A stretch of DNA of 64,000 bases, from the NCBI RefSeq assembly GCF_963676935.1, contig NZ_OY781470.1:2452680-2516679 (forward strand), read 5' to 3'. Position 1 is the first letter of the stretch. Each line of letters starts with the position of its first letter. Position numbers and translations under genes: made by a program. The stretch is from Halarcobacter sp. (GTDB taxonomy: Bacteria > Campylobacterota > Campylobacteria > Campylobacterales > Arcobacteraceae). The notes under the pieces were generated by a model. The model did no database searches and was not told where the DNA came from. It worked only from the letters and a program-made list of their open reading frames with translations. Positions 44,006-53,168 of the stretch are shown piece by piece.

Positions 44006-44845
44006 TCATGTTATTTTAGTAAGGTTACATAAACCTTTAAATTGTGGGAAATTATTTGAACCTTTTACAAATCTATTTGGTGTATCATTAGTAAAGTGTC
44101 TAAACTCTCTTATAAAATGGGATTGATCTGAAAAATTATATTCAAAAGCCAATTCACTAAACTCAATATTAAACTGTCTGAATTTCATTTGCTCTAAAAT
44201 TGAGTAAAATCTAGCTATTCTACTTATATTTTTTGGGGTCAATCCTGTATAATTTTTTACTTTTCTTTCTAATTGTCTAATAGATAAATTTTGTTCTGAA
44301 AAAAAATTATCTAAATTACCAACTTTATAAAGTTGACTTATATTATAAATTATCTCATCTGCATAAAAATTTTTTTTATTAAAGAGGTCAATAAAAAAAT
44401 TGTTTAACTCATTATAAAGCTTTATATTATTATCTTTTTTTTCATAAAGCTTTTCCAATATTGATTTATCAAACTTTAGAGAAAGGTCATTGAACGTATA
44501 TAGTTTATTTGAAAAATTAATTACAGGGAATTTAAATAACTTAAAAAAAATACTAGGTTTTAACTGTATATCAATGACTTTTATATCATCAGACATTGCT
44601 ACTTTATATGAGCTACAAATTGGAGGAACAATATATATGCCCTTATTTAATCTACTATCTATATATTCATTACCTTCACTAAAATTTATAGTTCCATTAA
44701 AGACCATAAAAATGGTAGCACATCCATCAGGTATAAAAATTTTATGAAAATGATTCTTTCCTTTCCCATTCCCTTCTAGGAACCAATATACTTTTATCCA
44801 TTCTTTTAATTTTAAATCTGGAAGGAACATTTTTGACGAATACAT
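44006..44845 (-). CDS. qhpR: AraC-family regulator, probable QhpR
   Basis: 279 aa. The C-terminal AraC DNA-binding domain has two helix-turn-helix units (LSIRQLERKVKNYTGLTPKN and FSELAFEYNFSDQSHFIREF, then GxTPxxF-like NDTPNRF). The N-terminal 150 residues are a cupin-like sensor region with PDGCATIFM. It is divergent from qhpA across 283 bases. In Paracoccus the qhp operon is controlled by an AraC-family QhpR, so the symbol rests on position and family. It likely activates qhp genes when an amine is present. Confidence 0.85.
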   Translation of the reverse strand: MYSSKMFLPDLKLKEWIKVYWFLEGNGKGKNHFHKIFIPDGCATIFMVFNGTINFSEGNEYIDSRLNKGIYIVPPICSSYKVAMSDDIKVIDIQLKPSIFFKLFKFPVINFSNKLYTFNDLSLKFDKSILEKLYEKKDNNIKLYNELNNFFIDLFNKKNFYADEIIYNISQLYKVGNLDNFFSEQNLSIRQLERKVKNYTGLTPKNISRIARFYSILEQMKFRQFNIEFSELAFEYNFSDQSHFIREFRHFTNDTPNRFVKGSNNFPQFKGLCNLTKIT

Positions 44846-44964
44846 TTTATCTCCTAAATAAATAATTGAAATTATAAGTATAACTTTTAAAAATCAATTT
44901 CTTAAGAGATTAATGTGTAAAAAAAAATCAATAAAATGAATTAATTAACAAAAAATATTTAAAT

Positions 44965-45087
44965 ATGTCGTTTTTTTACAAAAATATTCTTTTGAAAAGA
45001 AAAAATTAAGATGAGATGTTTATTGTATAAAAAATATACAGAAATGTCGTTTTTTTTCTATACATATTTTTTCTTTATTCTTATAAT
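44965..45087 (+). promoter_or_regulatory. qhp promoter region with two direct repeats
   Basis: The 13-base element ATGTCGTTTTTTT occurs at 44965-44977 and again from 45044, 79 bases apart and in the same orientation. A TATAAT is at 45082-45087. The second repeat would lie at roughly -50 to -37 relative to the start site, which is where AraC-type activators commonly bind. Operator function is inferred. Confidence 0.55.
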
Positions 45088-45128
45088 TTTATCAATCATT
45101 TGATTAGTTAAATAAAAAGGAGAGAAGT

Positions 45129-46712
45129 TTGAAAACTACTTATTTAAGTTCAATGTTGAAATTTAGTGTTGGGTTCTTAATATCTTCTGCAAGTCTTTAT
45201 GGAACAGACTTTAATGCAGGCAAAAATATTATTGACACTAAATGTATAGCATGTCATGTTGGAAATACAGATATCGGATTAAGTCGTATTTCAGATCAGA
45301 GAAAAACACCTGAAGGGTGGTATATGACAGTCCATAGAATGAAAAATCATGGACTATCACTTTCTGAAGAAGAGATAAAATCAGTTGTAAAATATTTATC
45401 TGATACACAAGGTTTAAATCCTAATGAGAGTGAACCATATAGATATATTTTAGAACAGACACCTAATTATCAGGAAACACATAAAAATTCTCTGTTAACT
45501 GAAGTTTGTGCTAGATGTCATAGTGAAGCAAGGTTTAGTGTTCAAAGAAGAACATCTAGTGAATGGAGTCACTTAGTAGATTTTCATGTAGGTCAGTTTC
45601 CTACATTAGAGTTTCAAGCTCTGTCTAGAGACAGAGATTGGTTTAGTATTGCAAAAGATGAAATTGTTCCACTCTTAAGTAAAAGCTTTGGAAATGATAC
45701 AAATTTTGAAAAAATTGATGCAAATTATGAAGGTACATGGAGTTTATACGGTCATAAATTAGGTGACGGAGATTTCAGTGCAACAATGAGTGCTAAAAAA
45801 GTTTCAAATGATGTTTATAAACTGACTTTAAAAGGTAATTATTTAGATGGTAGAGAGTTTAATGCTACAGGTGAAGCTGTTGTATATTCAGGTTATGAAT
45901 GGAGAGCAAAACTTGACTTAGATGGGATTGCTTTTAATCAAGTATTTAAAATGAATCCTAAAAGCCAAGAGTTAAAAGGTAGTATGTTTGAAACTCTGCA
46001 CTCAGAAGAGTATTCTTATATCAAAGGGGTAAAAAGCAGTAATACCAAAAGTGTAGTTTTAGGAGTTTATCCAAAATCAATTAAAGCAGGTGAGAGTGAA
46101 GTTATTACCATAAGTGGAAATAATCTTGACGGAAAAGTAAAACTCTCTTCAGGGCTTAAAATAAATAAAATTTTGGAAAAAACAGCTTCCAAAATTGTAT
46201 TAGATGTAACGGCAAGTTCTAAATATGATTCAAAACAAGTTGATTTATCGGTTGGTTCAATTAAATTAGATAAAGAATTAACAGTTTATAAAAAAATTGA
46301 TGCTTTAAAAGTATTCCCATCTTATGCTATTGCAAGAGTAGGTGACGGTGGCGGAGTTATGCCAAAGCAGCATGCTATTTTTGAAGCAATTGGATATTTA
46401 GTAGGAAACGATGGAAAACTAGGAACAAATGATGATATTTCATTAGGAAAAGTCGATGCAAAATGGAGTGTTGCTCCTTTTGATAAAAGAGCTAAAGAGG
46501 ATCAAGATATTAAATTTGCAGGAACAATGGACTCTTTTAGCGGAAGATTTACTCCCTCTTTTGCAGGACCGAATCCATTAAGAAGATTTGGAACAAATAA
46601 CGCAGGAAATCTAAAAGTTATAGCAACATATAAAGATGAAAACGAGACTCTAAAAGCAGATTCTCATCTAATGGTAACAGTTCAAAAATGGGTGAACTCT
46701 CCAATTAATTAA
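45129..46712 (+). CDS. qhpA: Quinohemoprotein amine dehydrogenase alpha subunit
   Basis: 527-aa periplasmic di-haem c subunit that takes electrons from the quinone cofactor of the gamma subunit. Start TTG at 45129 with AGGAGA just upstream. Signal peptide over about 25 residues (MLKFSVGFLISSASLYG). Two haem c motifs: C39-x-x-C42-H43 (CIACH) and C127-x-x-C130-H131 (CARCH). The C-terminal half has the beta-rich domains of the family (VVLGVYPKSIKAGESEVITI). First gene of the qhp operon; oxidises primary amines to aldehydes and ammonia. Confidence 0.93.
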   Translation: MKTTYLSSMLKFSVGFLISSASLYGTDFNAGKNIIDTKCIACHVGNTDIGLSRISDQRKTPEGWYMTVHRMKNHGLSLSEEEIKSVVKYLSDTQGLNPNESEPYRYILEQTPNYQETHKNSLLTEVCARCHSEARFSVQRRTSSEWSHLVDFHVGQFPTLEFQALSRDRDWFSIAKDEIVPLLSKSFGNDTNFEKIDANYEGTWSLYGHKLGDGDFSATMSAKKVSNDVYKLTLKGNYLDGREFNATGEAVVYSGYEWRAKLDLDGIAFNQVFKMNPKSQELKGSMFETLHSEEYSYIKGVKSSNTKSVVLGVYPKSIKAGESEVITISGNNLDGKVKLSSGLKINKILEKTASKIVLDVTASSKYDSKQVDLSVGSIKLDKELTVYKKIDALKVFPSYAIARVGDGGGVMPKQHAIFEAIGYLVGNDGKLGTNDDISLGKVDAKWSVAPFDKRAKEDQDIKFAGTMDSFSGRFTPSFAGPNPLRRFGTNNAGNLKVIATYKDENETLKADSHLMVTVQKWVNSPIN

Positions 46713-51871: not shown

Positions 51872-53168
51872 AAAAATCGTGGTATTAGGTGCTGGCGTAG
51901 CAGGAGTTACCACTGCAATTGGATTAAAAAAATTAGGATTTGATGTAACAATTATATATAAAAACCGTCCCTTTAGGGCATATGAGGGACTTAGTCAAAA
52001 AACAAAAGATGGCTTCTCTTTACTTGATTGTAAAAACTGCTTTTCACAATTAAATACCCAATCTGTAAGAAACTCAAATTGGGCAGAGATGAATAGTAAA
52101 GTAAATTATGAATATGTAGTTTGTAGAGATGACTTTGATATGGCTTTGTTACAAGATGCAAAGGAACATAATATTTCACTTATAAGGGGAAATATTCTTG
52201 GAAAAATAGATTTTCAAGATAAAGTAAGTGTGAAATATAAAAGTGAAAATATTAAAAATACCTTTATAGCAGACTTTGTTGTAGATGCTAGAGGAAGATT
52301 TACTCCATATAAAAGTGAATATAAGCATGGACCTAAAAGTTTTTCTATTTTACAAGAGTTAGAATTAGATAGTATGAGTCAAAGCAAAACTTCAATTGAT
52401 ACCGTAGAAAACGGTTGGGTTTGGCAAGCTTATGTGGGAGAAAATAGAGGATATATTCAATTTACCTGCGATGAAGAACTTGCAAAAAAAATAGAGAGTT
52501 TTGAAGATGTAAAGCCATTTTTAGAGAATCAAGGTATCGATTTATGGAGTTTAAAAAATCATAAATTAAAAGGCTCTTTAGTAAAAAGAGATTCCTATTG
52601 TAAAGTACATAAAACAATTGTTACAGATAAAATGATATTAGTTGGAGATAGTGCTTCAAGTATTGACCCACTTTCAGGGAATGGAGTTTTTCAATCATTG
52701 AGTATGTCAAGTATTGCTCCGTATGTGATAAATACTATTTTAAATAGAGAAGAAAATAAAGAGATTGCAATAGAGTTTTATAAAAAAAGAGTAAATTATA
52801 TTTTTGAAAAGTTTTCAAAGGTTGGTAAAGATTTTTATTCTTTAGAAAAAAGATTTAAAACAAATTTTTGGATAAAAAGACAAACTTATCCTTTAAATAC
52901 AATACAAGATGAGAGTATAAAGATTGAAAATTATGCCATTGTAAGAGATGGATTTATAGAACCTAAAGAGGTAGTTATAACAAAAGATAACCCCCTTGGT
53001 ATTTATTTTTTAGGAAATATTGAAATAGTTGAATTGGTTAAATATTGTTTAAATAATAGTGTAGAAAAAGCCTTAAACTTTTTTGATAATTTTTGTGAGA
53101 AAAAAAGTTTATCTTTAGATAGTAGGATATTTTTGAAAAAATGGTTACTGAATCAAAGTATAATATAA
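51858..53168 (+). CDS. qhpG: Flavin monooxygenase for CTQ biogenesis
   Basis: 436-aa FAD-dependent monooxygenase. Rossmann motif VVLGAGVAGVTTAIG at the N-terminus, DARGRFTPY (DG-type motif region) and LVGDSASSIDPLSGNG (second FAD motif). By family it hydroxylates the tryptophan of QhpC that becomes the quinone. Last gene of the qhp operon, followed by a bidirectional terminator. Confidence 0.9.
   Translation: MNPTKKIVVLGAGVAGVTTAIGLKKLGFDVTIIYKNRPFRAYEGLSQKTKDGFSLLDCKNCFSQLNTQSVRNSNWAEMNSKVNYEYVVCRDDFDMALLQDAKEHNISLIRGNILGKIDFQDKVSVKYKSENIKNTFIADFVVDARGRFTPYKSEYKHGPKSFSILQELELDSMSQSKTSIDTVENGWVWQAYVGENRGYIQFTCDEELAKKIESFEDVKPFLENQGIDLWSLKNHKLKGSLVKRDSYCKVHKTIVTDKMILVGDSASSIDPLSGNGVFQSLSMSSIAPYVINTILNREENKEIAIEFYKKRVNYIFEKFSKVGKDFYSLEKRFKTNFWIKRQTYPLNTIQDESIKIENYAIVRDGFIEPKEVVITKDNPLGIYFLGNIEIVELVKYCLNNSVEKALNFFDNFCEKKSLSLDSRIFLKKWLLNQSII

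Follow-up and report, generated by a model that had tools for sequence, protein, structure and literature searches.

AraC-family activators are known to use class II sites such as araI2, and araO2-araI is a looped operator pair. The NtrC box is TGCACC-N5-GGTGCA, and the box of TyrR, a relative of the sigma54 activators that works with sigma70, is TGTAAA-N6-TTTACA. In Rhodobacter capsulatus and Caulobacter (PMC10274813), NtrC lacks the GAFTGA motif, and its action at sigma70 promoters has been reported or inferred; it carries an aspartate that is phosphorylated and has NtrB as its partner kinase, and the expression of glnA in Caulobacter requires it.

For amine dehydrogenase (qhp) operons, PMC5023235 describes a rise of the qhpRADCBFE cluster of Methyloversatilis on methylamine, which supports amine induction in that organism. 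In A. butzleri, PMC2147049 reports no growth on n-butylamine, benzylamine or methylamine as the sole carbon source, leaves open the substrate of the amine dehydrogenase, and describes the species as lacking NtrB/NtrC and RpoN. Among the open-licence matches listed, no paper on a QhpR operator or on an Arcobacter nitrogen regulator was found.

The qhp locus and its TGTCG repeats

The window analyzed here is a 64,000-nucleotide stretch of the 3.1-Mb genome of Halarcobacter sp. It contains a complete qhp operon that ends at position 53168; the families TIGR03908, TIGR03906, NF037958, TIGR03907, NF049966 and NF049967 are matched above their cut-offs, and the ABC transporter gene was identified via Pfam. 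The intergenic gap 44846-45128 separates qhpA on the plus strand from a divergent gene on the minus strand, named qhpR by its position adjoining qhpA. The DNA-binding domain of QhpR is of the AraC type (HTH_18, 44.0 bits; HTH_AraC, 38.0 bits; both above the Pfam cut-offs). The features of the locus are collected in the table.

Features of the qhpR-qhpA region and of the candidate nitrogen regulator row
Feature	Position	Strand	Remarks
qhpR, AraC-type regulator	44006-44845	-	DUF6597 and HTH_18/HTH_AraC, Pfam matches over cut-offs
qhpR -10 hexamer TATACT	44877-44882	-	promoter scan: TTAAGA-17-TATACT
Putative degenerate nitrogen box at the qhpR promoter	44914-44930	-	reverse complement TGATTTTTTTTTACACA, 8/12 positions; 31 bp before the divergent -10
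Distal TGTCG-T7-AC, proposed QhpR site of the divergent qhpR promoter	44966-44979	+	6/6 clade A loci
Palindrome TGTATAAAAAATATACA (TGTATA-N5-TATACA), proposed nitrogen box	45024-45040	.	centre about -62; 4 bp before TGTCG
Proximal TGTCG-T8-C, putative QhpR site at the qhpA promoter	45045-45058	+	about -49 to -36; 15/15 loci in register
qhpA -35-like hexamer TATACA	45059-45064	+	17-bp spacer to TATAAT; 10/12 consensus matches
qhpA -10 hexamer TATAAT	45082-45087	+	exact in 14/15 loci; TAAACT in L015
qhpA	45129-46712	+	first gene of operon qhpA-D-C-B, ABC transporter gene, qhpE, qhpG
291-aa protein, 252-aa NtrC-like protein, GlnD row	L095:342-4522 = G000:C1:2649841-2654021		beside amtB-glnK

QhpA matches were found at 15 loci in 12 of 104 Arcobacteraceae genomes. 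In a sample of 397 genomes of the phylum QhpA exceeds the family cut-off in eight, every one from Arcobacteraceae; one single QhpA sequence used as a query against genome contigs gave no match. Clade A comprises the window locus (L001) and five loci whose QhpA is 63-68% identical to that of the window (L002, L004, L005, L006, L007); the remaining loci show 45-50% identity and include the eight loci of clade B, plus L015. A qhpR homolog is linked to qhpA in all 12 genomes. Two diverged qhpA copies are present in each of G025, G036 and G045 (L004/L013, L009/L015 and L005/L014, respectively), and the paired copies in G036 and G045 are about 5.5 kb apart. In three of the six clade A loci (G026, G045, G090) a porin gene, oriented as qhpR, is located between qhpR and qhpA. 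Its TorF family (TIGR02001) was tested in G026 (L052, NCBIfam); the porins of G045 and G090 are similar by eye (L051, L053). In G036 (L050) an Opr porin gene (NCBIfam) occupies this place, with one TGTCG copy preceding it and another preceding qhpA.

The first-pass annotation had pointed to ATGTCG followed by a T run, occurring twice in the qhpR-qhpA gap at a distance of 79 bp, with the second copy touching the -35 region. The sequence bears this out: the copies are at 44965-44977 (seven T) and 45044-45057 (eight T), 79 bp apart from start to start, and only a single C separates the end of the second T run from the -35-like hexamer. Taken alone, the rarity of the repeats within one window is modest, as 0.32 matches to the 13-mer with at most one mismatch are expected and two or more matches occurred in 6 of 100 shuffles. 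We judge the repeats to be real because of their conservation. When both strands of the window are scanned with a 14-bp matrix derived from the proximal sites at the other 14 loci, the two copies are the best-scoring of 127,974 positions, with 23.6 and 22.4 bits, compared to 11.1 for the third-best position. The exact TGTCGYTTTTTTWC occurs twice in the whole genome, both times in this gap, and the similarity between the copies stretches to 37 bp at 78%. The element is kept before qhpA in 15 of 15 loci from 12 genomes when related qhp loci are compared, as had been proposed as a check. A chance AT-rich repeat is ruled out by this conservation across loci.

Positions of the two copies relative to the divergent promoters

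The proximal copy retains an exact TGTCG in 14 of the 15 family loci, reads AGTCG in L002, and lies 37 bp (13 loci) or 38 bp (two loci) from the start of the -10 hexamer; the flanks between and outside the conserved blocks are less conserved. The gap is AT-rich and carries several A/T tracts and inverted repeats, so the T-tracts could be intrinsic bends or an UP element next to an incidental TGTCG. We consider this very unlikely, since TGTCG is the invariant part of nearly all proximal sites, whereas the T run is broken in L003, L004, L005, L010, L011, L012 and L013.

The 12 qhp genomes contain 14 exact copies of TGTCGYTTTTTTWC, 11 of them at qhp loci; one of the other three is inside an open frame. 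Exact matches to the composite TATACANNNNTGTCGYT in G016-G055 are at qhp loci in nine of ten cases, the tenth (G040) being elsewhere, while the same search with one mismatch is uninformative, with matches in 95 of 104 genomes. In G013 there are 249 matches to TATACANNNNTGTCGYT at up to one mismatch, probably a repeat family.

The element might instead be bound by another, for example unlinked, factor, the linkage to qhpR being mere gene order. The three exact copies outside qhp loci, as well as the torF-type and Opr porin genes that adjoin copies in some genomes, would suit such a factor, but the concentration of exact copies at qhp loci, the presence of qhpR beside qhpA in all 12 genomes, and the occurrence of the palindrome described below at other genes without TGTCG make it unlikely. 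The repeats are conserved and are most probably recognized by QhpR, the regulator encoded beside the operon, and the proximal copy is well supported as a predicted QhpR site. The earlier proposal of the repeats as QhpR operators thus holds with respect to their conservation, their location mostly at qhp loci and the constant linkage to an AraC-type gene, but the copies do not behave like a single pair.

The second copy has a narrower distribution. In a leave-one-out scan of 600 bp before qhpA, it was found in all six clade A loci (15.5-23.6 bits) and was absent in all nine other loci, where the next best score is at most 4.6 bits. The distance between the distal and proximal copies in clade A is 79, 70, 70, 99, 69 and 99 bp. 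The distance from the distal copy to a AATGTTTAAAA-like motif near the divergent promoter, picked by eye, is 52, 51, 52, 52, 52 and 52 bp, and in all six loci this motif and a -10 hexamer (TATACT, TATAAT or TAGAAT) are 37-38 bp apart.

We regard a single looped operator pair in the style of araO2-araI, in which the distal copy would have no separate function at qhpR, as rather unlikely. The 79-bp value, noted in the first pass as close to 7.5 helical turns, is not conserved, although the clade A spacings are roughly in helical phase with one another (period 10.5: R 0.82, P 0.01, or 0.04 with four distinct values). This phasing is statistically modest, its P value depends on the period (0.0002 at 10.0, 0.13 at 11.0), and the genomes are related. 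Moreover, nine of the 15 loci have a single copy inside 600 bp, and the copy-to-copy distance varies by 30 bp whereas the distal copy remains 51-52 bp from the motif of the divergent promoter. The two copies as a fixed pair are therefore unsupported: each copy keeps a constant distance to its own promoter while their mutual spacing varies, which suggests that each belongs to its own promoter. The distal copy is probably the element of qhpR itself.

The palindrome and a candidate nitrogen regulator

The conserved block that holds the proximal copy also includes a palindrome, overlooked in the first pass. At qhpA it is complete (12/12 positions) in 11 of the 15 loci and matches 11/12 in two; the poorest versions are in L002 (8/12) and L015 (1/12 in register). 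The exact box is found 3-10 times per genome in the 12 qhp genomes (70 in total), and a reversed control pattern 0-4 times. Out of 59 exact boxes away from qhp loci, 47 were examined; the selection was non-random, as boxes that came in recurrent pairs with a spacing of about 1.7 kb, later recognized as those of amtB-glnK, were chosen first. These 47 boxes precede amtB-glnK, a second amtB, glnA, gltB, porin, binding-protein and other genes, part of them genes without an evident nitrogen role; amtB, glnA and gltB were identified by Pfam in single examples and the remaining genes were named by eye.

A -10-like hexamer is located 30-33 bp to one side of 37 of the 47 boxes, with a peak at 31-32 bp, and ten boxes have none at this distance; off-peak four-bp bins contain hexamers at 2-13 of the 47 boxes. 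At qhpA the distance is 41-42 bp, one helical turn above the usual value, and the extra turn is the space occupied by the TGTCG element. Since the palindrome is common to promoters of nitrogen genes, qhpA appears to be under the joint control of amine and nitrogen status.

The box could also act at qhpR. In all eight clade B loci, a -10-like hexamer for qhpR is found 31-32 or 41-43 bp from the other side of the palindrome, with 1.2 loci expected for shuffled flanks; these gap values were picked post hoc, and L003 and L014 also have an equal or better hexamer at 22. With hexamers on both sides, a single box may serve both the qhpA and qhpR promoters in clade B. The degenerate box at qhpR in the window is weak by itself (shuffle P 0.22); jointly, the boxes of six loci exceed all 2000 shuffles, but these loci are related and their register was chosen visually from a conserved ACA. 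In L050 an 11/12 box lies 31 bp ahead of TACAAT.

The candidate regulator of this box is encoded in a row adjoining amtB-glnK, which consists of a 291-aa protein without a Pfam match, a 252-aa NtrC-like protein, and GlnD. The Pfam matches of the 252-aa protein to AAA+ and Fis-type domains are below the cut-off, except for Sigma54_activat in L072 (20.8 vs 20.2). Comparison with PDB gave an NtrC-family chain (4e-07) and a Fis-like one (0.0086), and the top NCBIfam match is ntrC NR(I) (1.4e-09, well under the cut-off). No receiver domain was matched in five of five proteins scanned at E 0.01, and the GAFTGA loop is missing, as judged by eye, in five of five aligned sequences.

The box and the NtrC-like protein tend to occur together. 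In 29 genomes of the genus g2, leaving out the two incomplete genomes G033 and G035, the 16 with the protein have 3-9 boxes and the 13 without it have none, except for one genome with a single box. Across 57 family genomes, the mean is 5.8 boxes (minimum 1) in the 41 with the protein and 0.3 (maximum 2) in the 16 without it. These co-occurrence statistics, like those for glnA below, ignore kinship, and the joint loss of the box and the protein in g2 may represent few loss events. The glnA gene has an 11-12/12 box at -82 to -84 in all ten genomes having the protein, and 7-9/12, the chance level, in all nine genomes without it. The protein is present in all 12 qhp genomes. Its relatives occur in 166 of the 397 sampled genomes of the phylum, so the nitrogen system may be general in this phylum.

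The palindrome at qhpA could still be a general AT-rich promoter feature unrelated to nitrogen, given that these genomes are AT-rich and the reversed control sometimes equals or exceeds the box count. However, in g2 the box counts track the NtrC-like protein and the control pattern does not, and among the 19 genomes compared the glnA box is found only where the protein is present; such a feature is a highly improbable explanation.

Regulatory model and comparison with known systems

We consider it likely, on the evidence of sequence comparison, that the locus is under two-input control, with QhpR sites at divergent sigma70-type promoters and a nitrogen box for the NtrC-like protein. TGTCG-T7-AC would be the recognition element of QhpR, and the proximal copy, placed against the -35 hexamer of qhpA, would take a class II activator position. 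The distal copy would act at the qhpR promoter (autoregulation), possibly touching the proximal complex too. A nitrogen regulator, most likely the small NtrC-like protein, putatively of the Fis type, encoded between the 291-aa protein and GlnD, would act on TGTATA-N5-TATACA. The operon would then be on when amine is present (through QhpR) and nitrogen is short (through the NtrC-like protein), and the oxidation of amine under nitrogen shortage would supply ammonia. From the geometry of the sites we infer activation instead of repression; the inducer, the identities of the binding proteins and the AND logic are to be taken in the same conditional sense.

The position of the qhpA promoter site beside a switch of nitrogen genes suggests that the role of the enzyme is nitrogen scavenging. 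On balance, we lean towards a wider scheme for Arcobacteraceae, at least one of which reportedly lacks RpoN. Nitrogen control would be exerted by a stripped-down NtrC relative, without receiver and GAFTGA, activating sigma70 promoters via TGTATA-N5-TATACA; the qhp operon would be wired in beside QhpR, and the enzyme would be a nitrogen scavenger, not a carbon-catabolic one. This provides a testable reason for the Arcobacter amine dehydrogenase, and the nitrogen box predicts the use of amines as a nitrogen source in A. butzleri. For a group with a member reported to have neither NtrB/NtrC nor RpoN, the analysis also puts forward a candidate for the nitrogen regulator and the site to which it would bind.

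The same enzyme is encoded by the qhp operons found in Pseudomonas, Marinobacterium and elsewhere. We compared 79 gamma- and beta-proteobacterial loci (L097-L175), the best 80 of 311 relatives minus one Aliarcobacter locus, many of them from closely related Pseudomonas. Neither TGTCGYTTTT nor the exact box was found within 450 bp of qhpA in any of the 79, which speaks against the TGTCG element as a general feature of qhp operons. TGTC...GACA is present within 450 bp of qhpA in 12 of these loci. The pattern TGGCAC-N6-TG[CT] occurs within 300 bp in 64 of the 79 loci (0.2 expected in shuffles) and a stricter sigma54 pattern in eight, so the count depends on the pattern used; the qhpA promoters of the 64 loci look sigma54-dependent. 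The same operon would thus have sigma54-like promoters in gamma- and beta-proteobacteria and sigma70-type ones in Arcobacteraceae.

The qhpA site resembles AraC class II sites in being asymmetric, in abutting the -35 hexamer, in its location in the gap between regulator and operon, and, in clade A, in having a second copy upstream. It differs in lacking an equal second half-site at a distance of about 21 bp, in having as its neighbor a palindrome common to nitrogen genes, and in that the distal copy goes with the promoter of the regulator gene. With the NtrC box, the palindrome shares the 17-bp 6-5-6 architecture, and with the NtrC system the glnA and amtB-glnK targets, a putative, distant Fis-type DNA-binding part and GlnD in the neighborhood. 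In contrast to them, the letters here are TGTATA/TATACA, the box precedes sigma70-type -10 hexamers by 31-32 bp, and the protein has 252 aa with neither a receiver domain nor GAFTGA. The absence of GAFTGA is shared with the sigma70-acting NtrC of R. capsulatus and Caulobacter, from which the NtrC-like protein differs by having no receiver match. The TyrR box is a similar palindrome, and there too a relative of sigma54 activators works with sigma70; however, the spacer is five nucleotides here and six in the TyrR box, and the genes are those of nitrogen metabolism here and of aromatic amino acids in the TyrR system.
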